Of a stretch of DNA of 64,000 bases, positions 27,162 to 38,919 are shown one piece after another. The DNA is from Geodermatophilus siccatus (GTDB taxonomy: Bacteria > Actinomycetota > Actinomycetes > Mycobacteriales > Geodermatophilaceae), in contig NZ_FNHE01000011.1 in assembly GCF_900103785.1 (NCBI RefSeq), positions 124,001 through 188,000 on the forward strand. Direction: 5' to 3'. Below the pieces are notes generated by a model. It did no database searches. It saw only the letters and a list, made by a program, of their open reading frames with translations, and had not been told where the DNA came from. Each line of letters starts with the position of its first letter. Position 1 is the stretch's first letter. Made by a program: the position numbers and the translations under genes.

Positions 27162-28694
27162 TCAGCCCCCGGCGAGCAGCGCGCGGACGGCGTCGAGCGG
27201 ATCGGCGTCGGCCGGCGACCGGTCCGGCCGGTAGCGCACCACCCGGGCGAAGCGCAGCGCGACGCCGCCGGGGTAGCGGGGGCTGCGCTGGGCGCCGTCC
27301 AGGGCGACCTCGACGACCAGCTCGGGTTCCAGCAGCACGCCCCACTCGTGCTGCTCGCGGGCGAGCCCGGGGAAGGTCCGCGTCTGCCAGTCGAGCAGCT
27401 CGTCGGTCATCCCCTTGAAGGTCTTGCCGACCATCACCGGCTCGCCGCCGTCGGGGTCGCGGGCGCCCAGGTGGATGTTCGACAGCCTCCCGGCGCGCCG
27501 GCCGTACCCCCACTCCGCGCCGAGCACGACCAGGTCGAGGGTGTGCACCGGCTTGACCTTCTGCCAGGCCCGCCCGCGGCGGCCGGCGGCGTAGGGCGCG
27601 TCGAGCGCCTTGACCACCACGCCCTCGTGCCCCGCGCCCAGCGCGGCGTCGAGCACCTCGGCGGCCTGCTCGGGCGTGGGCCGGCGGACGCCGGGCATCC
27701 GCAGCGCCGCGTGCTCCGCGCCGGCCAGCAGCCCCGCCAGCGCGTCGAGGCGGACGGCCAGCGGCTCGTCGAGCAGGTCGCGGCCGTCGAGGTGCAGCAG
27801 GTCGAAGAAGAACGGGCTGAGGACGACGGCGGGGTCGGGCTCGTCACTGCCGAAGCGGCTCATCGTGTCCTGGAAGGCGCGCGGCCGGCCGTCGTCGTCC
27901 AGGGCGAGGGTCTCCCCGTCGAGGACGGCGGTGCGGCACGGCAGCGACCGGACCTGCGCGACCAGCTCGGGCACCCCGTCGGTCACCTCGCGCAGGGTGC
28001 GGGTCCAGACGCGCACGACGTCGCCGTCGCGGTGCACCTGGATCCGGGCGCCGTCCAGCTTGTGCTCGACCGCGACGGCGTCGCCGAGGTCGGCCAGCAC
28101 GGCGTCCAGCGAGGCGCCGGGGCCGGCCAGCATCGGCCGCACCGGGCGGCCGATCCGCAGGTGCACGGCCTCCAGCGCGTCCGTGCCGCCGGCCAGGGCG
28201 GTGGCGGCGGTGTCGGGCAGGCTGCCCGACAGCATGAACGCTCGCCGCACGGCTGCGGTGGGGACGTCGGCCGCGGCGGCGATCGCGTCGAGGACGACGC
28301 CCTCCAGCGCGCCCTGCCGCAGCTCGCCGGTGAGCAGCCGGACGAGGAAGCGCTGCTCGTCGGTGGTGGCGGCGGTGAACAGCTGCCCGAGGAGCGCCTC
28401 CCGCCGGGCCGCCGACCCGGTGCCGGTCGTGCCGGCCAGCTCGGTGAGCGCACGGTCGACGTCGGGGACGGTCAGCTGCGGTGAGGTGGCCGGGTCGTGC
28501 GCGAGGCGGCTCAGCGTGCGCCAGCCGACCCCGAGCCGGCCCTGCAGGGGATCGCCGGCCAGCCACGCGGGAACCGCCCGCACCTCGTCGCCGTCCGCGC
28601 GGCGCAGCAGGTCGGCGATGGCCGTGGCCTTGGCCGTGCGCGAGCGGGTGGCCGCCACCGCGGCGGAGGCGGTGACGACGTCGGCGAACAGCAC
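27162..28694 (-). CDS. ATP-dependent DNA ligase
   Basis: 510 residues from GTG 28694. An N-terminal DNA-binding domain (RTAKATAIADLLRRADGDEV ... TGELRQGALEGVVLDAIAAA) precedes the nucleotidyltransferase core: motif I EHKLDGARIQVHRDGD with the adenylated lysine near residue 205, motif III FFFDLLHLDGRDL, motif IV HEGVVVKALDAPYAAGRRGR, and motif V WQKVKPVHTLDLVVLG. A C-terminal OB fold follows. This is the LigB-like replicative-style architecture of actinobacteria, where NAD-dependent LigA is the main ligase and this one acts in repair. A much longer open frame upstream is not ligase-like; GTG 28694 fits family length. Confidence 0.93.
   Translation of the reverse strand: MLFADVVTASAAVAATRSRTAKATAIADLLRRADGDEVRAVPAWLAGDPLQGRLGVGWRTLSRLAHDPATSPQLTVPDVDRALTELAGTTGTGSAARREALLGQLFTAATTDEQRFLVRLLTGELRQGALEGVVLDAIAAAADVPTAAVRRAFMLSGSLPDTAATALAGGTDALEAVHLRIGRPVRPMLAGPGASLDAVLADLGDAVAVEHKLDGARIQVHRDGDVVRVWTRTLREVTDGVPELVAQVRSLPCRTAVLDGETLALDDDGRPRAFQDTMSRFGSDEPDPAVVLSPFFFDLLHLDGRDLLDEPLAVRLDALAGLLAGAEHAALRMPGVRRPTPEQAAEVLDAALGAGHEGVVVKALDAPYAAGRRGRAWQKVKPVHTLDLVVLGAEWGYGRRAGRLSNIHLGARDPDGGEPVMVGKTFKGMTDELLDWQTRTFPGLAREQHEWGVLLEPELVVEVALDGAQRSPRYPGGVALRFARVVRYRPDRSPADADPLDAVRALLAGG
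27163..27236. repeat. Downstream partner of the 74-bp direct repeat
   Basis: The intact 3' end of the ligase gene, matching 25711-25784 at 64 of 74 positions in the same orientation. The 1.38 kb between the repeats contains the FAD monooxygenase gene. Confidence 0.85.
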
Positions 28695-28747: not shown

Positions 28748-28796
28748 CTGTCAGGCGGGCGGCGGCCGTGCCAGCCGCGTGACAGGGCCGTGCGAG
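28748..28796 (+). promoter_or_regulatory. Candidate SARP-binding heptamer repeats before the MFS/PIG-L operon
   Basis: CTGTCAG at 28748, GTGCCAG at 28768, GTGACAG at 28779 and GTGCGAG at 28790: the last three are spaced exactly 11 bases, one helical turn. SARP regulators bind such phased direct heptamers. A similar set lies before the methyltransferase at 35111, and a SARP gene lies between. The SD-start sequence GGAGGACGAGATGG is also shared by both target genes. Confidence 0.6.
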
Positions 28797-28838
28797 GGGG
28801 CGCGGCCACCGTGAGGACCCGTGGAGGTGGAGGACGAG

Positions 28839-30044
28839 ATGGCCGGTCGATCGGTGGACGCAGCGGCGCCGGCCCGGGCGGTCGGCGCGCCGGAGCGGGG
28901 CCGTGGGACGGCGACGCCGGTGGCGGTCCTGGGGATCGGTGCGTTCGCGACCGGCACCGACCTCTTCGTCGTGGCCGGGGTGCTCCCCGGTCTGGCCGAC
29001 GACCTCGGGCTCACGGTCGGCACCGCCGGCCTGACGGGAACGGTGTCCGCGGCCGCGTACGCCGTCGGCGGCCCGGTGCTCGGCGCTGCGCTCGGCGCGC
29101 GCCCCCGGCGGCGGGTGCTGATCGGGTCCCTGGCGTCGTTCGGGGCGTGCACCGCGATCGCGGCGGCGGCACCGACGTTCGCGGTGCTCCTCGTCGCCCG
29201 GGTGCTGGGCGCCCTCGCGGCGTCCGTGCACGTGCCGGTCGCTGCCGCGGCAGCCGTCGCGGCGGTCCCGGCGCGGTCCCGTGGCCGGGCACTGGGGGTG
29301 GTCCTCGGCGGGGCCTCGGCCGCGATGGTCCTGGGTGCACCGCTCGGCGTCCTGCTGGCCGGGCTGCTGTCGTGGCGTGCGGCCTTCGGCCTGGCCGCTG
29401 TCTTCGCGGCCGGCGGCGTCGTCGTCCTGCTGTGCGGCGACGTCGGGTCCGGTCGGCTGCCCCCGTCGACGCTGTCCGAGCGGCTGCGCCCGGTCCGCCG
29501 CCCCGCGGTCGTCGTCACGCTGGGCGCGACGGTCCTGGTGATGGCCGGCTCGAACGGCGTGTACAGCTACCTCGGCGTGCTCCTGGACCCGGTCGCCGGA
29601 CCGGCCGGTCCCGGCCTGGTCATGGCGGCGTTCGGCCTCGGCGGCGCGGCGGGAGCCCGGTGGGGCGGGATCCTGGCGGACCGGCTCGGGGACCGGCGCC
29701 TGGTCCTGCTGGCGGGAGGGGCGCTGACGGCGGCGGTCGCCGCGCTCCCGCTGGTGGCCTCGACCGGCGGCGCGCTGCTGGTCGTCGTGGCCGGGTGGGG
29801 GACCGCGGCCTGGGCGTTCACCGCGGCGCAGCAGCACCGCGTGCTCCGGCTGGGCGGGGACGCGGCGTCGGTGTCCCTGGCCCTGAACAGCGCGGCGACC
29901 CACGTCGGTTTCGCGGTGGGTGCGCTGCTCGGCGGTCTCGTCGTGGACACCGCCGGCCCCGGCCCGCTGGCGCTGCTCGGCGTCGCCCTCGGCAGCGCCG
30001 GACTGATCCTGCACCGATCCCTCGACCTGGAGGTCCGATCATGA
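28839..30044 (+). CDS. MFS exporter, chloramphenicol/sugar-efflux (DHA1) type
   Basis: 401 residues from ATG 28839, chosen because GGTGGAGGACG lies just upstream; a GTG at 28821 is in frame. Twelve membrane spans beginning VAVLGIGAFATGTDLFVVAG VL, with the DHA1 feature GTDLFVVAGVLPGLADDLGL (compare the TSEFVVAGLLP of Cml/Ara exporters) and motif-like GAALGARPRRRVLIGSLASF. Central loop LPPSTLSERLRPVRRP. It should export a small molecule. It overlaps the PIG-L gene by four bases, so exporter and deacetylase are made together, and the upstream region carries the putative SARP repeats. Confidence 0.9.
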   Translation: MAGRSVDAAAPARAVGAPERGRGTATPVAVLGIGAFATGTDLFVVAGVLPGLADDLGLTVGTAGLTGTVSAAAYAVGGPVLGAALGARPRRRVLIGSLASFGACTAIAAAAPTFAVLLVARVLGALAASVHVPVAAAAAVAAVPARSRGRALGVVLGGASAAMVLGAPLGVLLAGLLSWRAAFGLAAVFAAGGVVVLLCGDVGSGRLPPSTLSERLRPVRRPAVVVTLGATVLVMAGSNGVYSYLGVLLDPVAGPAGPGLVMAAFGLGGAAGARWGGILADRLGDRRLVLLAGGALTAAVAALPLVASTGGALLVVVAGWGTAAWAFTAAQQHRVLRLGGDAASVSLALNSAATHVGFAVGALLGGLVVDTAGPGPLALLGVALGSAGLILHRSLDLEVRS

Positions 30045-30811
30045 CCGAGTCCGTGACCGTCGTCGCCGAGCTGGGCACCGTCCTCGGCATCTGGGCGCAC
30101 CCCGACGACGAGGCCTACCTGTCCGGCGGGCTGATGGCGCTGGCTCGCGACGGCGGCTCCCGCGTGGTGTGCGTGACCGCGACGCGAGGCGAGCTGGGCA
30201 CCCCCGACCCGGAGGCGTGGCCGCCCCCGCGGCTGGCCGCGGAGCGCACCCGCGAGCTGGCGCGCTGCCTGGCGCTCCTCGGCGTCTCCGAGCACCGCTG
30301 GCTCGGGTACCGGGACGGCGAGTGCCCGGACGCCCCCGCGTCCGAGGCGGTCGCGGCCTTGTGCGAGGTGATCGACGAGGTCGCCCCGGACACCGTGGTG
30401 ACGTTCGGCCCGGACGGCATCACCGGTCACCCCGACCACCGGACGGTGTCGGCGTGGGTGACCGCGGCGTTCGACCGGGCGGCCGCGCGGGGGGCCCGGC
30501 TGCTGTACGCGGCGGCCCCCGAGCGGCGGGTGCCCCGGTGGCAGGACCTGGACGAACGCCTGGGCGTCTACCTGCCGGGTTACCCCGTCGCGGTCCCCGA
30601 CGAGCAGCTGGCGGTCGACCTGGTGCTGGACCCGGACACGGCAGCCCGCAAGGTCCGGGCGCTGGCGGCCCAGACGACCCAGACGGCCGGCCTCATCGCC
30701 ACGATGGGGATCGACTGCTACACCGCCTGGGTCGGTGAGGAGTCGTTCGTCGAGCACCGGCGCTCGGCGCCGGTCGCCCAGCGGCCGGTCGCGGCGGTCA
30801 CGCGCGGGTGA
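30041..30811 (+). CDS. PIG-L family deacetylase (MshB/Mca-like)
   Basis: 256 residues from ATG 30041 inside the MFS stop (ATGA). Zinc site motifs are intact: AHPDDEAYLSGGLMAL near residue 19 and GHPDHRTVSAWV near 130, with CVTATRGELGTPDP and WLGYRDGEC between. The family removes acetyl groups from GlcNAc-linked compounds; members include MshB of mycothiol synthesis and Mca, which cleaves mycothiol conjugates so that mercapturates can be exported. Coupling with an exporter fits Mca-like detoxification or tailoring of a secreted product; neither is proven. Its last codons are part of an 18-bp sequence repeated at the end of the SARP gene. Confidence 0.9.
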   Translation: MTESVTVVAELGTVLGIWAHPDDEAYLSGGLMALARDGGSRVVCVTATRGELGTPDPEAWPPPRLAAERTRELARCLALLGVSEHRWLGYRDGECPDAPASEAVAALCEVIDEVAPDTVVTFGPDGITGHPDHRTVSAWVTAAFDRAAARGARLLYAAAPERRVPRWQDLDERLGVYLPGYPVAVPDEQLAVDLVLDPDTAARKVRALAAQTTQTAGLIATMGIDCYTAWVGEESFVEHRRSAPVAQRPVAAVTRG

Positions 30812-30832
30812 GCGTCGCATCCAGGTGACCTG
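30795..30832. repeat. Left partner of a repeat flanking the cupin/HxlR pair
   Basis: The first 18 bases, cggtcacgcgcgggtgag, recur exactly at 32220-32237. The whole 38 bases, taken as reverse complement, also align with 32202-32239 (29 of the first 35 positions), because the shared core is nearly palindromic. Both copies cover a stop codon of the outer genes (PIG-L, SARP). Confidence 0.65.
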
Positions 30833-30897
30833 AGGGACCGGGCTCTGCCCGAGGACATCCTGCACTCCAGGGCGCGGCTCAGCGAAGGGCACGCTCG

Positions 30898-31329
30898 TCA
30901 GACGGGTACGGAGTCGTAGCGGGAGGAGATCTCGCGGCGGACGACCGGGTCACGCAGGCTGTCACCGGGAAGCCGGCTGAGGGCCTTGAACATCTCGTGC
31001 AACCCGGCCGGGGCCATGATCGCCAGCAGGGTCCCGCCGCCTCGCCGCGCTGTGATCATGTGCGGGCTGCCGACCGGGACGAGGTAGTAGTCCCCGCGTC
31101 CTGCGGTGACCGCATCCCCGTCGCACTCGAAGTCGAACGTGCCGTCCAGGACGAAGAACGACTCACTGGTCCGCTGGTGCACGTGCGGGATCGTCCAGGG
31201 GCCCTCGTCCCCGCGGAACTCCGCCAGGGCGAAGGCGCCCCCGGCCTGGTCCTCGACCAGGACGCGCATCGAGACCACGCCCAGGTCGCAGATCTCCCCG
31301 GCGTCCTTGTTCACGTAGTACCCGGCCAC
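30898..31329 (-). CDS. Cupin-domain protein (quercetin-dioxygenase-like)
   Basis: 143 residues from GTG 31329, eight bases after GGAGGAGG; a longer frame upstream lacks a ribosome site. A single cupin barrel: FALAEFRGDEGPWTIPHVHQ RTSESFFVLDGTFDFECDGD with the His-x-His ... Glu metal motif 1, and VPVGSPHMITARRGGGTLLA as motif 2. These small cupins bind a metal and act as dioxygenases, isomerases or sensors. Divergent from the HxlR regulator 110 bases away, a common regulator-target arrangement. Confidence 0.85.
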   Translation of the reverse strand: MAGYYVNKDAGEICDLGVVSMRVLVEDQAGGAFALAEFRGDEGPWTIPHVHQRTSESFFVLDGTFDFECDGDAVTAGRGDYYLVPVGSPHMITARRGGGTLLAIMAPAGLHEMFKALSRLPGDSLRDPVVRREISSRYDSVPV

Positions 31330-31439
31330 TGTGACCGCCTCCTCCAGTGAGAGGAACCCACGATGCTGCGCCGTCCTCGGGCACTCCAGCCCAGAAAGTG
31401 AACCGCCCCGGTGACCCTCCGGGTGCCAGACTGCGGGGT

Positions 31440-32126
31440 GTGCGGACCTACGGTCAGTACTGCCCGGTCGCACGGACGGCCGAGCTGTTCGCCGAGCGCT
31501 GGACGCCGATCATCATCCGGAACCTGCTCGCGGGTGTGACGACCTTCGGCCAGTTGCTGGCCGGGGCGCCGGGCATCCCGAAGGCGCTGCTCGTCCAGCG
31601 GCTGGCCGGCCTGCAGAGGGCTGGCATCGTCGAGCGTCGCACCGGCCCCGGCCGCCGGGTCACCTACGACCTCACCGATGCCGGCCGGGACCTCAAGCCG
31701 CTGTGCGACGCGATGGGCGCCTGGGGGATGCGCTGGCTCGAGGTCGAGCCGCAGCACATCGACCCGGCCTACGTCCTGTGGGCCACCGCGCGACTGGTCG
31801 ACGTCGACGCCCTGCCACCCGGCCAGGTGACCGTCCGGGTCGAGCTGCGCGAGGCAGCCGCCGGCCCCTACTGGTTGCTGCTGCACCGCCCCGTGGCCGA
31901 GGTCTGCACCCACTACCCGGGGACCTCCGAGGACCTGGTCCTCCGCACGGACGCCGACGCCCTCGCGCGCTGGCACCTGCGCGAGTGCAGCTACGCCCAC
32001 CTGGTCCGTCAGCAGCGCATCCGGATCGACGGGCCGCCGGGCCTGGTCCGCGCGTTCCCCCGGTGGATCCGCCCCAGCCCGCACGCCGTGCACCGCATCC
32101 CTGCGTCCGCCCTGCCGTCCTCCTGA
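31440..32126 (+). CDS. HxlR-family winged-helix transcriptional regulator
   Basis: 228 residues from GTG 31440, the start that puts YGQYCPVARTAELFAERWTP at the N-terminus as in the family; there is no clear ribosome site, so a leaderless mRNA is possible. The winged helix reads IIRNLLAGVTTFGQLLAGAP GIPKALLVQRLAGLQRAGIV ERR with wing GRRVTYDLTDAGRDL. A Cys in QYCPV is the conserved residue used by many HxlR proteins as a redox or aldehyde sensor. The C-terminal extension of about 110 residues (SCP2-like, VTVRVELREAAAGPYWLLLH) is found in larger members. It likely controls the divergent cupin gene. Confidence 0.88.
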   Translation: MRTYGQYCPVARTAELFAERWTPIIIRNLLAGVTTFGQLLAGAPGIPKALLVQRLAGLQRAGIVERRTGPGRRVTYDLTDAGRDLKPLCDAMGAWGMRWLEVEPQHIDPAYVLWATARLVDVDALPPGQVTVRVELREAAAGPYWLLLHRPVAEVCTHYPGTSEDLVLRTDADALARWHLRECSYAHLVRQQRIRIDGPPGLVRAFPRWIRPSPHAVHRIPASALPSS

Positions 32127-32201
32127 GCCCTTCCCGCAGGCAGCTGGGGGTCCTCCACCCGCGTCAGCCGCACTCAGTCGTCGCCGACCGCGCCTGGGGC
32201 C

Positions 32202-32239
32202 CAGGTCACCTCCGTGCGACGGTCACGCGCGGGTGAGGT
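32202..32239. repeat. Right partner of the repeat flanking the cupin/HxlR pair
   Basis: Counterpart of 30795-30832. It covers the stop codon of the SARP gene and contains AGGTCACCT where the left copy has AGGTGACCT. Together they bracket 1.37 kb holding only the cupin and HxlR genes. Confidence 0.65.
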
Positions 32240-35051
32240 TGCGTTCGATGGCCAGCCGCGCCACCTCGAGCACGGCGGCCCGGTCGGGGACCTCGACGGT
32301 GGCCGGCCGCGGTGGGGTGCTGCGGGCGGCGGCGTCGGGAGCCCGGTCGGAGGCCGCGTCGAGCAGGTCGGCCGGCTGCTCGTCGCCGAGCCGGCGGAGG
32401 AGGTCGGCGAGGTTGCGCAGCGTCGTCCACTGGTGGGTCCAGTTGCCGGTGCGGGCGAAGTAGTCGACCACCTCCCGGTACCCGACCAGCGCCTCACGGA
32501 CCCGGCCGGCGTCGGCCCGTGCGGGGAGCAGCCCCACGGAGGCGATGCCGACGACGAAGGTGGCCCCCGCCGTCCGGGCCAGGTCGATGGCCCGGACGTA
32601 GTGGGGCTCGGCGCGGTCCCGGCGGCCGACGGAGGTCTCGATCTCCCCGGTGACGTAGGCACCGAAGGCCCGCATCGAGGGCGAGACCGCCTCGGCGAGC
32701 CCGCGGTCGTTGAGGCTCCGCGCCCGGTCGGCGTCCCCCGCGTAGGCCAGCGCGAGGGCGGCGATCCCGAGCAGCTCGCCGGGCCGGGCCCGGAGCGCGG
32801 CCGCGGCGAGGGCGTGCTCGGCGGCCTCGGCGTACGCCCCGCGGGCCAGGGCGACCACCGACAGCGGCAGCAGGCAGTACCCCGTCCCGATCGCGTCGGT
32901 CGCGCGATCCAGCCCCGCGCGGGCGAGCCGGACCGCCGTGGGGAGGTCGCCGCGGTGGTAGGCGGCCTCACCGGCCGTGCCCAGCACCGCGGCCTCCCGC
33001 GGGTGGCCGGTGAGCGCCGGGTCGGCGGCCAGCTCCTCGGCCCAGCTGCGGAGCTCGACGAGGTCGCGGTAGGTGACGGCGTCGTACAGCCCCAGGACCA
33101 TCGCGATCGCGTCGTCGAGGGCGCCGCGGCTGCGGGCCGACCGCCAGGCGGCCCGCAGGTTGGCCACCTCCCGGCGCAGGACGGCGTCGGCCTCGGGCTC
33201 GCGGTCGGTGAGGGTGGTGGCGGCGAACCAGGCGGCCAGCTCGACCGCCCAGCGCTGCATGCGGTCGGTCGCGGCCTCCCGCTCTCCGGCCGCCGCCAGC
33301 CGGTCCAGCCCGAACGCCCGCAGCGTGTCGAGCATGCGGTAGCGCGCGCCCCCCTCCGCGATGTCGGCCTCGACCATCGAGGCGTCGACCAGGCGGGCCA
33401 GGACGCTCCCCGGGTCGCTGCCCAGGTCCAGGTCGGCGGCGAGCCGCTCGGCGGTCCCCAGGTCGACGCCGTCGACGAACACCGACAGCTGCCGGAACAG
33501 GCGCCGCTCGTCCTCGGAGAGGAGCTGGTAGGACCACTCGACGGTCGCGCGCAGCGTCCGGTGCCGGGCGTCCCCACTGGGGCGCCCCCCACCCAGCAGG
33601 TCCAGCGAGCGGGTCAGCCGGCTGCGCAGGTCCGTGAGGGAGAAGGTCGACAGCCGGCCGGCAGCCAGCTCGATGGCGAGCGGCATGCCGTCGAGCCGGT
33701 GCACGATGTCCGCCACCGTGCGCAGCTCGTCGGGTGTCGGTGGGGGGCCGGGGCGCACCCGGTCGGCCCGGTCCAGGAAGACCGCCACGGAGGGGACCCG
33801 GGCGAGGTCCCGGTCGCCGTCCGGGAGCGGGAGCGGGGCCAGCCGGACGACGCACTCGGCCGCCAGACCGAGCGGCTCCCGGCTCGTGGCGAGCACGGCG
33901 ACCCGCGGGCAGGCGGACAGGACGGCGTCGACCGCGTCGCGGACCGCGTCCAGCAGGTGCTCGCAGTTGTCGACCACCAGCAGGCCGGGGCGGTCGCCCA
34001 GGACGGCGACGCAGGCCGCGAGGACGTCGCCCCGGACGACCTCCAGGCCCAGGGCCGCCGCCAGCGCGTGCGGGACGGCGGCCGGATCGGTGACGGGTGC
34101 GAGCAGCAGCGTCGCGGTCGTCCCGCTGCGTCGCGCGACCTCGACGGCGACGCGGGTCTTCCCGACACCGCCCGGCCCGACGAGCGTGACCAGCCGCTCG
34201 CTCTCCAGGCGCCGGTGCAGCGCAGCGACCTCCGCGTCCCGGCCGATGAGCCGGGTCGCGGGCCGGACGGACACCCGGGGTCCGGGTACCGGACCGGCAG
34301 CACCTCCGGCGACCTCCCGTTCCAGCTGGTCCAGCTCCGGTGACGGGTCGAGGCCGGTCTCCTCGGCCAGCCGCTGCCGGTACCCGCGCGCGGTCCGCAG
34401 CGCCTCGGGCGCCCGCCCGGTCGCCGCCAGCGCCCGCACCAGCAGCAGCACCGCGGGTTCGCGCAGCGGGTCGTCGGCCAGGGACGCGGCCGCCAGGCCC
34501 AGCACCTCCTCCGCCTTCCCGGCGGCGATCGCGCTGCCGATCAGCGCGTCGGTCACCTCCCGCAGGAGCCGCGTGCACTCCTCGACCGCGGCGGCGATCG
34601 GCAGGACGTCGGTGAGGTCGGACAGGACCGGTCCCCGCCAGAGGGCCCGTGCCTCCCGCAACACGGCGAGCGCACCGGCCGGGTCCTGCCGTCCGCGCGA
34701 GCGCGCCGCCGCGAGCAGCGCCCGCGCCCGCGCCACGTCGAGGGCGTCGCCCTCGAGCACGAGCCGGTAGCCGTCCGGCTCGGTCTCCAGCCGGGCCGCC
34801 GCGGAGCCGAGGTGCCCGCGCAGCCGGGACACGTGGCTGTGCAGGGCCTGGCGGCCCGACTCCGGCACCTCCGACGGCCACAGCGCGTCCACCAGGGTGT
34901 CCACCGGCACGGTCCGGCCCTCGGCGAGCGCGAGCAGGGCCAGCACTGCCCGTCGCTTGGGACCGCGCACGTCGACCACTCGGCCGTCGACGACCAGCCG
35001 CAGCGGCCCGAGCACCTCCACCCGGACCCCCGCCGCCTGGTCGCCCGACAT
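32223..35051 (-). CDS. SARP-family regulator with BTAD, AAA/NB-ARC ATPase and TPR-like C-terminus
   Basis: 942 residues from ATG 35051 with GGAGGTGCGCG upstream. Residues 8-100 are an OmpR-like winged helix (VEVLGPLRLVVDGRVVDVRG PKRRAVLALLAL, SGRQALHSHVSRLRGHLGS); 105-250 form the bacterial transcriptional activation domain (DALDVARARALLAAARSR, LREPAVLLLVRALAATGRAP EALR). A STAND ATPase follows with Walker A GPGGVGKTRVAVEVAR near 290, Walker B LLVVDNCEHLLDAV, and GMPLAIELAAGR. The last 350 residues are helical TPR-like repeats. This is the AfsR/RedD-type large regulator that activates secondary-metabolite or stress genes when ligand or ATP state changes. It is divergent from the methyltransferase gene across phased heptamer repeats. 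Confidence 0.93.
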   Translation of the reverse strand: MSGDQAAGVRVEVLGPLRLVVDGRVVDVRGPKRRAVLALLALAEGRTVPVDTLVDALWPSEVPESGRQALHSHVSRLRGHLGSAAARLETEPDGYRLVLEGDALDVARARALLAAARSRGRQDPAGALAVLREARALWRGPVLSDLTDVLPIAAAVEECTRLLREVTDALIGSAIAAGKAEEVLGLAAASLADDPLREPAVLLLVRALAATGRAPEALRTARGYRQRLAEETGLDPSPELDQLEREVAGGAAGPVPGPRVSVRPATRLIGRDAEVAALHRRLESERLVTLVGPGGVGKTRVAVEVARRSGTTATLLLAPVTDPAAVPHALAAALGLEVVRGDVLAACVAVLGDRPGLLVVDNCEHLLDAVRDAVDAVLSACPRVAVLATSREPLGLAAECVVRLAPLPLPDGDRDLARVPSVAVFLDRADRVRPGPPPTPDELRTVADIVHRLDGMPLAIELAAGRLSTFSLTDLRSRLTRSLDLLGGGRPSGDARHRTLRATVEWSYQLLSEDERRLFRQLSVFVDGVDLGTAERLAADLDLGSDPGSVLARLVDASMVEADIAEGGARYRMLDTLRAFGLDRLAAAGEREAATDRMQRWAVELAAWFAATTLTDREPEADAVLRREVANLRAAWRSARSRGALDDAIAMVLGLYDAVTYRDLVELRSWAEELAADPALTGHPREAAVLGTAGEAAYHRGDLPTAVRLARAGLDRATDAIGTGYCLLPLSVVALARGAYAEAAEHALAAAALRARPGELLGIAALALAYAGDADRARSLNDRGLAEAVSPSMRAFGAYVTGEIETSVGRRDRAEPHYVRAIDLARTAGATFVVGIASVGLLPARADAGRVREALVGYREVVDYFARTGNWTHQWTTLRNLADLLRRLGDEQPADLLDAASDRAPDAAARSTPPRPATVEVPDRAAVLEVARLAIERNLTRA

Positions 35052-35110
35052 CGCGCACCTCCGGTGCCCAGCGTGCCCGCCTCGGCCCCCGGACGGGAGG
35101 GTCGGCCGCC

Positions 35111-35149
35111 CTGTCAGCGGGCTGCCAGCGCCTGCGAGAGCCGTGACAG
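35111..35149 (+). promoter_or_regulatory. Candidate SARP-binding heptamer repeats before the methyltransferase
   Basis: CTGTCAG at 35111, CTGCCAG at 35122, CTGCGAG at 35132 and GTGACAG at 35143, spaced 11, 10 and 11 bases. The set lies in the 150-base region between the SARP gene and the methyltransferase gene and resembles the repeats at 28748. Confidence 0.6.
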
Positions 35150-35201
35150 GGCCCGCGCCCACCGTCTGTCGCGACACCGCAGGACAGTGGAGGAGGACGA
35201 G

Positions 35202-36248
35202 ATGGACCAGAGCAGGGTGACGGCGTTCCTCGAGCGCTTCGTCACCGACCTGGGCGCGGGTGGATCCGTCGGCGCGGTGGCGATCGGCCACCGGCTGGGG
35301 CTCTACCGCGCCCTGGCGCAGGGCCCGGCGACGCCCGAGCAGCTCGCCGAGCGCAGCGGGTGCCACCCCAGGTACCTCACCGAGTGGCTGCGCGGCCAGG
35401 CCGCCGGCGGGTGGGTGGGCTACGACGCGGCGACCGGCGCGTTCTCGCTCACCGAGGAGCAGGCGTTCTGCCTGGCCGACCCGAACGGGCCCAACCTGGC
35501 CGCGGCGTCCCTCGTCGTCCTCGGCTACCTGCGTGCGGAACCGAGGATCACCGAGGCCTTCCGCACCGGTGCCGGCGTCGCCTGGAGCGAGCACCACGAG
35601 GACGTCTTCGTGGGGTGCGACGCCTTCTACCGACCCGGCTACGTGGCCCAGCTGGTGCCGGACTGGATCCCCGAGCTCGACGGGGTCGAGGAGAAGCTGG
35701 CCGCCGGGGCGCGGGTCGCCGACGTCGGGTGCGGTCTCGGCTCGACCTCGGTGCTGCTCGCCCAGGCCTACCCGCGCACGACCGTCGTCGGCTCGGACTC
35801 GCACGCCGGGTCGATCGACCTGGCCCGCAAGAAGGCCGCCGACGCCGGGGTCGGCGACCGGGTGAGCTTCGAGGTGGCCTCCGCGCAGACCTTCTCCGGC
35901 AGCGACCACGACCTCGTGACGATGTTCGACTGCCTGCACGACATGGGGGACCCGGTGGGTGCCGCCCGCCGGGTGCGCGAGGCGCTGGCGCCCGACGGCA
36001 CGTGGTTGCTCGTCGAACCGTTCGCCGGCGACACGGTGGAGGACACCCTCGACCCCGTGGGGCGGCTGTACTACAACGGCTCGACGTTCCTGTGCGTCCC
36101 CAACGCGCTCGCCCAGCCGGGCGGCCGCGCACTCGGCGCCCAGGCCGGTGAGGCCGCCATCCGCGAGGTCGCGGCCGAGGCGGGCTTCACGCGGTTCCGG
36201 CGGGCGGCGCAGACGCCGTTCAACCTGGTCTACCAGATCCGTCCGTAG
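35202..36248 (+). CDS. Class I SAM-dependent methyltransferase with N-terminal winged helix
   Basis: 348 residues from ATG 35202; GTGGAGGAGGACGAG precedes it. The first 110 residues form a helical/winged-helix dimerisation part (GAVAIGHRLGLYRALAQGPA TPEQLAERSGCHPRYLTEWL). The SAM site is ARVADVGCGLGSTSVLLAQA near 170, with acidic loop VVGSDSHAGSIDLARKKAAD and DLVTMFDCLHDMGDPVGAAR RVREAL. This build is shared with O-methyltransferases and with methyltransferases acting on small molecules. It is a single gene, divergent from the SARP gene, with the putative SARP repeats in between. Confidence 0.88.
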   Translation: MDQSRVTAFLERFVTDLGAGGSVGAVAIGHRLGLYRALAQGPATPEQLAERSGCHPRYLTEWLRGQAAGGWVGYDAATGAFSLTEEQAFCLADPNGPNLAAASLVVLGYLRAEPRITEAFRTGAGVAWSEHHEDVFVGCDAFYRPGYVAQLVPDWIPELDGVEEKLAAGARVADVGCGLGSTSVLLAQAYPRTTVVGSDSHAGSIDLARKKAADAGVGDRVSFEVASAQTFSGSDHDLVTMFDCLHDMGDPVGAARRVREALAPDGTWLLVEPFAGDTVEDTLDPVGRLYYNGSTFLCVPNALAQPGGRALGAQAGEAAIREVAAEAGFTRFRRAAQTPFNLVYQIRP

Positions 36249-36284: not shown

Positions 36285-36710
36285 TCAGCTCCCGCCGGCC
36301 GGCCCACCGAGGTGCGCCTGCTTAGGGGCCAGGCCGCGCAGGGCCTCGGTGGCGACCCGGTCCCGGTCGGCGCCGGCGGCCGCGGTGACCGCCGCGCCGA
36401 CGAGGCCCTCGACCAGGGGAGCGGGGGAGAGGACCACCCGCTCGCGGACGTCGTCGTCCAGCAGTTCCAGCGCGGTCTCGGCGGAGAGGACGGCGCTGCC
36501 GAGGTCCATGAGGACGACGACGCCGTCCCCGCTGTCGGCCGCGGTGACGGCGTCGGCGATCGCCGTCGCGTCGGTGCCGAGGCCGCCGTCGACGTCCCCG
36601 GCCGCCACGCCGACGGCGAGCTCGCGGCCGGGCAGCATGCCGCGGGCGAGCTCGACGGCGGCGTCGGCGAGGGCGCGGCTGTGCGACACGACCACCAGTC
36701 CGACCGGCAC
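36285..36710 (-). CDS. dhaM: Dihydroxyacetone kinase phosphoryl-donor subunit (PTS EIIA-mannose fold)
   Basis: 141 residues from GTG 36710. MPVGLVVVSHSRALADAAVE carries the phosphorylated histidine (His10 in VSHS), and GDVDGGLGTDATAIADAVTA, VVVLMDLGSAVLSAETALEL are family signatures. Only the EIIA domain is present, without fused HPr or EI domains. It passes phosphate from the PTS to DhaL-ADP. Last gene of dhaKLM, three bases after dhaL. Confidence 0.92.
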   Translation of the reverse strand: MPVGLVVVSHSRALADAAVELARGMLPGRELAVGVAAGDVDGGLGTDATAIADAVTAADSGDGVVVLMDLGSAVLSAETALELLDDDVRERVVLSPAPLVEGLVGAAVTAAAGADRDRVATEALRGLAPKQAHLGGPAGGS

Positions 36711-36713
36711 CGC

Positions 36714-37342
<629 letters not shown>

Positions 37343-37346
<4 letters not shown>

Positions 37347-38344
37347 GCGCCCCAGCGCAGGGACGGGGTGCGCACGGGGGCGTCCCACAGCCGCAGCAGC
37401 TCGTCGTCGGCCTTGAGCAGGGTGACCGAGCAGCCGGCCATGTCCAGGCTGGTCATGTACGAGCCGACGAGGTTGCGGGCGACCCCGACCCCGGCCTTCT
37501 CCAGGACGGCGACCACCTCGGCGTACATGAGGTACAGCTCGAGGAGCGGGGTGCCGCCCATGCCGTTGACGAAGGCGATCACCCCGTCGCCGCCGGTCAT
37601 GTCCAGGTCGGCCAGGACCGGCTCGAGGAGCATCTCGGCGACCTCCCGCGCCGGCGCCAGCGGGACGCGGCGGCGGCCGGGCTCGCCGTGGATCCCGATG
37701 CCGATCTCCATCTCGTCGTCCGGCAGGTCGAAGGTCGGCCGGCCGGCCGCGGGCACGGTGCAGGAGGTGAGCGCCATGCCCATGCTGCGGCCGTTGGCGT
37801 TGACCCGCTTGGCGATGTCGGCGACCTGGGCCAGCGGCCGGCCCTCCTCGGCCGCGGCGCCGGCCAGCTTCTCGACGAGGACGGTGACGCCGACGCCCCG
37901 CCGTCCGGCGGTGTAGAGGCTGTCCTGGACGGCGACGTCGTCGTCGGTGACCACCGCGACGACCTCGGTGTCGGCCTCGGCGGCCACCAGCTCCGCCGCC
38001 ATCTCGAAGTTCATGACGTCGCCGGTGTAGTTCTTCACGATGTGCAGCACGCCGGCGCCGCCGTCGACGCCGCGGGTCGCCGCCACCACCTGGTCGGGGA
38101 CCGGCGAGGTGAACACCTCCCCGGCGCAGGCCGCGTCGAGCATCCCCATCCCGACGAACCCGGCGTGCATCGGCTCGTGCCCCGAGCCGCCGCCGGAGAC
38201 CAGGCCGACCTTGCCCCGCACCGGTGCGTCGGCCCGGAGGACGACGCGGTTCTCGTGGTCGACCCGCAGCTCGGGGTGCGCCAGGGCCAGGCCGCGCAAC
38301 GCCTCGGGGACGACGTCCGCGGGGTCGTTGATGAGCTTCTTCAT
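37343..38344 (-). CDS. dhaK: Dihydroxyacetone kinase, substrate-binding subunit
   Basis: 333 residues from ATG 38344 with CAGGAGGCTGCG upstream. [66 protein letters not shown] and [20 protein letters not shown] are hallmarks; the His in GIHGE forms the covalent hemiaminal with dihydroxyacetone. First gene of a three-gene operon that turns dihydroxyacetone into DHAP for glycolysis. No DhaR/DhaS regulator and no PTS EI/HPr genes are in the window. Confidence 0.95.
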
Positions 38345-38451
38345 CGCAGCCTCCTGGCCTCGGCGTTCCCGGTGACGGGGGTCCCGGGGCAGGAGGCTAG
38401 GAGGGTGCACCGACGGGCACAAGCGAGGCCGGGGTCGTTCCCCGGTCCGCG

Positions 38452-38919
38452 TCACGGGACGACGACGACCGGCCAGCGGCTGCTGCGCACCAGGCGGTTG
38501 CCCAGCGACCCGAGCAGGCGGTGCCCCACCCGGGCCGAGGCCCCGACCACGACGAGGTCGGCCCGCAGCTGCGTGGCCAGGCGGCACAGCTGGGCGAACG
38601 GCTCGCCGCGCACGGCGACGAACTCGGCGCGGACCCCGGCGTGCGCGGCGTCGTCCTCCACCTGCGTGCGCAGGTCGGCGGTCCGCTGCGCCATCGTCTC
38701 CCGGATCGGCCACGGCTGGTCGGGGGAGAGCAGCGCCATCACCGGCGGGGTCTCGACGTGGACCACGACGAGCCGGGCGCCCTCGCGACGGGCGACCCCC
38801 GCGGCGTACGCGCCGGCCCGCGCCGAGGGCGGCGACCCGTCGAAGCCCACGACCACCACGGACGGGCCGTCGGTGCCGAGCTCGAACGCCGGCCGCTGCG
38901 GCGCGGCCTCCTCAGCCAT
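38452..38919 (-). CDS. Universal stress protein (UspA family)
   Basis: 155 residues. [20 protein letters not shown] opens the fold and the ATP-binding motif is [30 protein letters not shown] (G-2x-G-9x-G-S/T pattern) at the C-terminus. A single-domain cytosolic protein, normally induced under stress or dormancy. The start overlaps the end of the preceding gene by eight bases, so the two are translationally coupled. Confidence 0.92.

Follow-up and report, generated by a model that had tools for sequence, protein, structure and literature searches.

Small SARPs of the DnrI/ActII-ORF4 type, which have no STAND part, drive biosynthetic clusters and are associated with heptamer repeats spaced 11 or 22 bp apart near the -10 region. 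Activation of production is the main role in which SARPs are known, and the afs box of AfsR consists of two 11-bp repeats (-40 to -19) adjoining a suboptimal -10 hexamer, CACTGT (PMC10936776). The pimM operator of PimR, a SARP-LAL regulator, comprises three heptamers with 4-bp spacers, a secondary operator has a 3-bp spacer, and two heptamers are needed for binding (PMC5930380). Here we describe a locus of Geodermatophilus siccatus, contained in a stretch of 64,000 nt (NZ_FNHE01000011.1, positions 124,001-188,000, forward strand; genome size 5.2 Mb) that we call the window. In this locus a SARP of 942 residues lies between an operon for an MFS exporter and a PIG-L family deacetylase and a divergent gene for an S-adenosylmethionine (SAM)-dependent methyltransferase, and both target units are preceded by phased heptamers. 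We consider it highly likely that these genes form a dedicated regulon, in which the SARP would directly activate the two units via the heptamer arrays and the encoded proteins would share a small-molecule substrate. A cassette of SARP, PIG-L and methyltransferase was not found described in the searches made of open-licence papers.

Heptamer arrays at the two promoters

The SARP was searched for in 146 genomes, the own genome included, of which 86 belong to the Geodermatophilaceae. An orthologue was found in five of the 146, all of this family, namely the own one, G016 (92% identity), G042 (78%), G044 (67%) and G031 (72% over residues 1-715 and 64% over 715-941). The same four relatives also contain the PIG-L protein (66-94% identity) and the methyltransferase (74-96%), and the order of PIG-L, convergent SARP and divergent methyltransferase is common to all five. 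Arrays stand before both units in each of the five loci, with that of the PIG-L gene degenerate in G031. The exporter, counted as a module member in the original prediction, forms an operon with PIG-L only in the own genome and G016; in G042, G044 and G031 the array lies directly before PIG-L. The exporter is thus an optional, lineage-specific part and does not belong to the core of the module. In G016 the PIG-L and SARP genes overlap at their 3' ends with neither cupin nor HxlR genes between them, and G031 has a second methyltransferase gene (L037 5898-6941), 55% identical to that of the window and convergent with the module methyltransferase.

All eight heptamers of the original prediction are present exactly as given, and the SARP does lie between the operons and divergent from the methyltransferase (Table 1). 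When the matrix drew on the other four genomes and excluded the own one, operator 1 was the best match with 11-11 spacing in the window (28.5, against a maximum of 24.2 in 200 dinucleotide-shuffled windows) and operator 2 the best with 11-10-11 spacing (35.7 against 20.2). The three phased heptamers before the exporter stand. The further one, at 28748, is 20 bp upstream and not in phase, and G016, a close relative, has CTGTCGT in its place. We have dropped it as a fourth site of operator 1 and regard it as probably fortuitous because it is neither in phase nor conserved.

Two patterns designed on the window were searched for in 12 genomes, of which five contain a SARP orthologue and seven lack it. 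STGNNAG-4-STGNNAG-4-STGNNAG has a single exact match in the own genome, before MFS-PIG-L, and STGNNAG-3-STGNNAG-4-STGNNAG a single one before the methyltransferase. Over the 12 genomes the first (11-11) pattern yielded four exact matches, three of them at the module (own genome, G016, G044) and one elsewhere in G044, while the five exact matches of the second (10-11) pattern all precede the methyltransferases of the five orthologue-bearing genomes. Eight of nine exact matches are therefore at module promoters (6/7 without the window's own two), and none was found in the seven genomes without the orthologue. Matches with one mismatch were scattered across all kinds of genomes and carry little weight, since the backward-read pattern was even more frequent. 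These results are in agreement with the small SARP-controlled regulon originally proposed: the comparison of upstream regions across related genomes found the arrays kept at orthologous loci, and the genome-wide frequency check found exact arrays in the own genome only at the two module promoters. A Shine-Dalgarno and start context shared by both target genes, GGAGGACGAGATGG, had been noted as well. It precedes both genes in the own genome and in G016, where the claim holds, and does not do so in G042, G044 and G031; a third copy in the own genome lies inside a frame that by eye resembles a multicopper oxidase. Being confined to two species, the shared context was dropped as a sign of co-regulation.

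The conservation extends beyond the family to further soil actinobacteria. An alignment scan of genome contigs with PIG-L gave 292 relatives, of which the best 80 loci were kept, those of G016, G042, G031 and G044 among them. In 19 of these 80 a SARP of at least 50% identity is convergent with PIG-L, and in 17 of the 19 the methyltransferase is present too; two loci, L156 and L157, are near copies. The 19 come from Geodermatophilus, Blastococcus, Trujillonella, Pseudonocardia, Virgisporangium, Micromonospora, Allorhizocola, Gordonia, Aldersonia, Thermoactinospora, Acrocarpospora, Nonomuraea, Streptomyces and one metagenome-assembled genome. The 20 heptamers before the methyltransferases of the five Geodermatophilaceae were made into a matrix and used to score 12 further loci, 11 of them from named genera outside the family (three of Pseudonocardia) and one metagenome-assembled, with L157 omitted. 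For their methyltransferase promoters the 11-10-11 spacing ranked first of 729 (mean 18.1, second-best spacing 10.9; all spacings mean -3.5, standard deviation 3.5). In eleven of the 12 loci no more than 3 of 1000 dinucleotide shuffles reached the observed score; in L150 12 of 1000 did. Before PIG-L or MFS the 11-11 spacing ranked first of 81 both in 13 other loci and in the five home loci (L142, L153 and L157 set aside), and for none of the 18 upstream regions did more than 10 of 1000 shuffles score as high. Shared ancestry is not eliminated by such comparisons; in the aligned methyltransferase promoters, however, the information upstream of the array is at most 0.33 bit per column, compared with up to 2.9 bits inside.

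As a control, 23 methyltransferase homologues away from a SARP orthologue were scored. There the 11-10-11 spacing ranked 88th of 729 (mean -10.2), the best score was -1.4 with none positive, and the lowest shuffle counts were 7 and 9 of 300. L010 and L011, which lie beside another SARP, were excluded from this control, and their methyltransferases were scored de novo in L040 and L039. The de novo test for 11-bp repeats covered 12 loci of the methyltransferase family, 10 of them with a SARP in the stretch, and its outcome was mixed (6/12 at 0-11 of 300 shuffles, 6/12 at 23-275). Other SARPs, 34-40% identical to that of the window, are found beside or near methyltransferases of the same family in L129-L135, L039 and L040. 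In L083 (12100-12262) and L084 (4560-4776), repeats of the GTGTCAC/GTGACAC type stand in 11-bp phase and in both orientations between PIG-L and methyltransferase, as if one region served both directions.

A second fixed element lies downstream of the arrays. In an array-anchored alignment of 13 methyltransferase promoters (without the near copy G016, L144, L150 and L153) an A and a T four positions apart are invariant, which defines a hexamer NANNNT 10 nt past the last heptamer; its first base is S in 12 of the 13. When four heptamers were called, NANNNT occurred at gap 10 in 15/17 methyltransferase promoters, with one match at gap 11; L150 and L153, the only ones without it, have it there once two heptamers instead of four are called. 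Automatic calling in five promoter sets placed it at gap 10 in 41 of 54 promoters, while at the other 24 gaps the number of promoters averaged 0.33 and never exceeded 3. By set the counts were 10/17 (methyltransferase) and 15/16 (PIG-L/MFS) in the window's clade, 5/10 (PIG-L) and 6/6 (methyltransferase) in the Actinoplanes-type genomes described below, and 5/5 for Catellatospora-type methyltransferases; three further promoters were too short, and Nocardioides-type, G119 and G127 promoters were outside the test. Matches at gap 21 arose where the caller had ended one heptamer early. Two other candidates, a -10 at 14 nt and a -35 TGACAG with a 17-bp spacer, were dropped on account of the invariant A and T. 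This predicted -10-like hexamer, with its constant gap to the array, fits the AfsR/afs-box layout and adds to the support for the regulon originally proposed.

Table 1. Predicted features of the module and its surroundings (positions in the window)
Feature	Position	Strand	Remarks
Operator 1 (predicted)	28768..28796	+	GTGCCAG/GTGACAG/GTGCGAG at 28768/28779/28790; spacing 11-11; before MFS-PIG-L operon
Operator 2 (predicted)	35111..35149	+	CTGTCAG/CTGCCAG/CTGCGAG/GTGACAG at 35111/35122/35132/35143; spacing 11-10-11; SARP-methyltransferase intergenic region
-10 hexamer CACCGT (predicted)	28807..28812	+	10 nt past last heptamer of operator 1
-10 hexamer CACCGT (predicted)	35160..35165	+	10 nt past last heptamer of operator 2
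MFS exporter (MFS_1)	28839..30041	+	Domain search; stop overlaps PIG-L start at 30041
PIG-L family deacetylase	30041..30808	+	Domain search; AHPDDE and GHPDH motifs invariant
SARP, 942 residues	32226..35051	-	Domain search; OmpR-type DNA-binding domain, BTAD, putative STAND-like NTPase
Rv2258c/TnmJ-like SAM-dependent methyltransferase	35202..36245	+	HTH_65 and Methyltransf_25; divergent from SARP
CTGTCAG heptamer	28748..28754	+	Probably outside operator 1
Cupin (-) and HxlR regulator (+)	30901..32123	mixed	Between PIG-L and SARP; outside module

The SARP starts with a DNA-binding domain (PF00486, 31.1 bits, cutoff 26.2) followed by the BTAD (PF03704, 88.5 bits, cutoff 22.1), and its sequence contains the Walker A motif GPGGVGKT. 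Matches of the STAND type stayed below cutoff (AAA_22 25.9 of 27 bits, nSTAND1 21.3 of 27.1), and the domain search gave no match to a TPR family at E 0.001. The alignment with AfsR spans residues 5-591; the equivalog of AfsR orthologues, NF053617, was missed with 109.4 bits against a cutoff of 1430. PIG-L (PF02585, 108.9 bits, cutoff 28.2) has the zinc-motif residues H20, D22, D23, H130, D132 and H133 invariant across seven sequences. It misses the equivalog cutoffs of MshB (66.7 of 224.35 bits), Mca (52.7 of 277.15), BshB2 (71.1 of 195.25) and BshB1 (47 of 182.5), and it also matches LnmX, which we take to be a protein of the leinamycin cluster. The methyltransferase combines PF21320 (HTH_65, 50.2 bits, cutoff 24.1) with PF13649 (54.6 bits, cutoff 27), and the closest solved structures are TnmJ (PDB 8g5s) and 5f8c. 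The exporter resembles the Cmx/CmrA chloramphenicol exporters only distantly (NF033135, 184 of 400 bits, cutoff missed).

As to the surroundings, none of the stretches fetched around the module from G016, G042, G044 and G031 showed the cupin or the HxlR gene. An ATP-dependent DNA ligase gene (27165-28694; NF002868, above cutoff) is divergent from the MFS operon and adjoins it in G016 as well, and dihydroxyacetone-kinase-like genes (DhaM/DhaL/DhaK by eye; 36285-38713, minus strand) lie downstream of the methyltransferase.

Gene arrangements and spread of the cassette

The exporter accompanies 7 of the 19 loci in the same search; MFS-like sequence was in addition seen by eye in L153 and in L142, the latter outside the 19. 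Besides the arrangement of the window, the 80 loci contain a second one, with the SARP divergent from methyltransferase-PIG-L (5/80), and a third one, with the methyltransferase divergent from PIG-L-SARP (3/80, and also in G119 and G127). An all-against-all comparison of open reading frames covered the window and 18 fetched loci with up to 10 kb on each side, contig permitting, and asked for presence in at least three other loci at 35% identity. Beyond SARP, methyltransferase, PIG-L and MFS it found no further conserved family around the 19 loci, the sole listed exception being a second SARP in L160. Synthase or scaffold genes kept nearby, the mark of a classic SARP-controlled cluster, were not seen across the 19 loci in this comparison, which concerns family conservation across loci, individual loci not having been searched for biosynthetic clusters. 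The original statement that no synthase is nearby holds in this comparative sense.

Distances of PIG-L, SARP and methyltransferase correlate with each other (Spearman 0.61-0.68; 120 pairs from 16 sequences, without L145, L152, L154 and L157), and the Geodermatophilaceae are not monophyletic in the cassette tree, in which the supports of the relevant branches are modest (0.53-0.78). Taken together, both observations suggest that the cassette moves as a unit. In a midpoint-rooted FastTree of the SARPs, drawn without branch supports, the window's clade is sister to a group of Nocardioides, G119 and G127, the Catellatospora-type SARPs are placed among other SARPs, and those of the Actinoplanes type are set apart. 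With this placement a single origin of all SARPs beside PIG-L and methyltransferase was dropped; the association of the enzyme pair with a SARP may therefore have arisen more than once. The pairing of SARP and methyltransferase seems recurrent.

A negative control had been chosen from the 80 loci, consisting of eleven PIG-L genes for which no SARP was found in the vicinity. They also ranked the 11-11 spacing first (mean 6.0), because most of them carry arrays of another heptamer: 9 of the 11 have CGGCAAG-type arrays by eye, and only L159 and L161 do not. Rejected as a control, these genes became the lead to genomes with separated genes. In six draft genomes of Actinoplanes/Paractinoplanes PIG-L and methyltransferase lie apart, that is on different contigs and not as neighbours. 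A CGGCAAG-type pattern of three heptamers with at most one mismatch gave seven matches in four of the six genomes and none in two; three of these lie at PIG-L, another three immediately precede a methyltransferase homologue that is on a different contig, and one is elsewhere. In all six genomes a same-strand SARP (37-45%) lies upstream of the methyltransferase (41-44% identity), and CGGCAAG-type arrays with SANNNT at gap 10 precede the methyltransferase. The two separated genes therefore share one operator type. Since the SARP tree sets the Actinoplanes-type regulators apart from the window's clade, the pairing is, judged from this tree, older than or independent of the window's cassette. Across four or more gene arrangements, including one in which the genes lie apart, the target pair is kept under predicted SARP-type operators of the same layout, with different heptamers and different SARP lineages.

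The proposed regulon and its alternatives

We propose that the SARP binds the phased heptamers side by side, adjoining the predicted weak -10 CACCGT in both promoters in the way AfsR does at afsS, and that it would thereby directly activate two transcription units, MFS-PIG-L and methyltransferase. Activation would presumably be gated by the putative STAND half in response to a ligand. The PIG-L enzyme, as deacetylase or amidase, and the Rv2258c/TnmJ-like methyltransferase would act on the same small molecule, which the MFS pump may export in some lineages. The regulatory mechanism is of a known kind, a SARP with afs-box geometry, and a common small-molecule substrate is the natural reading, be it an endogenous product or an incoming toxin.

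Several observations weigh against this proposal. Operator 2 also scores 24.5 on the minus strand, the heptamer being near-palindromic (STGNCAS), so that the orientation of the arrays rests partly on the -10. An exact array stands away from the module in G044 (L137, about 2671-2699); by eye it lies just beyond the end of a 6-phosphogluconolactonase-like reading frame on the minus strand. The backward-read control, with one-mismatch matches included and not broken down to exact ones, was commoner than the forward pattern. The loci share ancestry, and the shuffles consequently overstate their independence. In L144, L150, L153, L155 and L156 the arrays are degenerate or called in another register; the best 11-10-11 array of L150 and L153 sits in a register different from the one seen by eye. 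In 53 of the 80 PIG-L loci, some on short contigs, the trio was not seen within the fetched stretch, and the PIG-L negative control failed. Finally, we infer binding, activation, ligand and common substrate.

The alternatives that survive best concern the purpose of the module. It is a serious possibility, short of probable, that it serves detoxification or resistance: the SARP would sense an incoming toxic small molecule and induce its methylation and export, along with its deacetylation or, alternatively, the cleavage of a thiol conjugate by the amidase. The absence of a synthase or another family conserved around the 19 loci agrees with this, as do the patchy occurrence of the SARP orthologue in the family and the ungrouped Geodermatophilaceae of the cassette tree. 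The optional exporter resembles chloramphenicol exporters below cutoff, and PIG-L is weakly like MshB, Mca and BshB. Against these points stand the presence of MFS in only 7/19 loci, the lack of any equivalog cutoff reached and the role of production activators in which SARPs are mainly known (PMC10936776). That role fits a tailoring arm, for which the scaffold would be made elsewhere in the genome and the SARP would switch on no more than the enzymes that finish an endogenous product. We hold this view tentatively. TnmJ, the closest solved methyltransferase, belongs to an enediyne pathway, and PIG-L matches LnmX; no conserved partner genes were found near the 19 loci, however, and no further exact array of the two patterns exists elsewhere in the own genome, so that any scaffold genes would not be under the same exact operator.

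That the arrays are operators of another regulator than the neighbouring SARP appears very unlikely to us. The link between SARP and array is drawn from sequence, one array (that of G044) is away from the module, and Actinoplanes-type PIG-L genes have arrays with no SARP found beside them; yet heptamers in 11-bp phase close to a -10 are the published SARP layout, and the seven genomes lacking the SARP orthologue also lack exact arrays. HxlR was rejected as a candidate because neither it nor the cupin turned up in the loci fetched from the four relatives. Chance reading of motifs into G+C-rich sequence, to which short, degenerate heptamers picked after seeing the sequence and one-mismatch arrays in all genomes might point, is practically negligible and was rejected on the other loci, the spacing ranks, the 23-homologue control, the fixed -10 gap and the exact matches.

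The dedicated SARP regulon thus remains the reading we prefer. Going one step further, and only as a cautious suggestion, the module might be a mobile, synthase-free response system in which a SARP/STAND sensor and two conserved enzymes recognise and remodel one small molecule. If this is true, SARPs would be dedicated sensors of metabolite modification or detoxification as well, beyond their function as switches of antibiotic production. The predicted exact-operator target set of this SARP amounts to two promoters in a 5.2-Mb genome, with operators predicted base by base from evolution, and so small a gene set makes the question of what STAND-type SARPs sense a testable one. The geometry of array and -10 provides a search signature for SARP targets, distant ones included, that cluster-based methods would miss.

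Comparison with known systems

MshB, Mca, BshB and LnmX are of the PIG-L family like the window's enzyme, which resembles the first three weakly; the mycothiol route reported for lincomycin may serve as a model of how a PIG-L enzyme could act on conjugates. TnmJ (8g5s) and the Rv2258c-like protein (HTH_65; 5f8c) are, along almost their entire length, of the same family as the window's methyltransferase. TnmJ belongs to the tiancimycin (enediyne) pathway (PMC9464397), whereas no pathway was found beside the methyltransferase of the window. PimR controls a regulator gene of polyene (pimaricin) biosynthesis, unlike the predicted targets of the window's SARP. Its 3-bp spacer is a precedent for the 10-bp step of operator 2, and its heptamer, CGGCAAG (PMC5930380), is the common one in Actinoplanes-type arrays, whereas the lineage of the window uses STGNCAG.

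A close parallel is AfsR of Streptomyces coelicolor at the afsS promoter. AfsR uses two repeats, in contrast to the three or four heptamers of the window, where the targets lie beside the regulator and the SARP is no AfsR orthologue. Both proteins are large with DNA-binding and BTAD parts, followed by a STAND part in AfsR and a putative one in the window's SARP, and in both cases 11-bp direct repeats stand beside a suboptimal -10, CACTGT at afsS (PMC10936776) and, as predicted, CACCGT in the window. Measured from where the last repeat begins, the -10 is 17 nt away in the window, and likewise at afsS if its -10 is placed at -12 to -7 by convention. The contact residues T88, S91 and R92 of AfsR (PMC10936776) align with S72, S75 and R76 of the window's SARP, the exchange of T for S being conservative.

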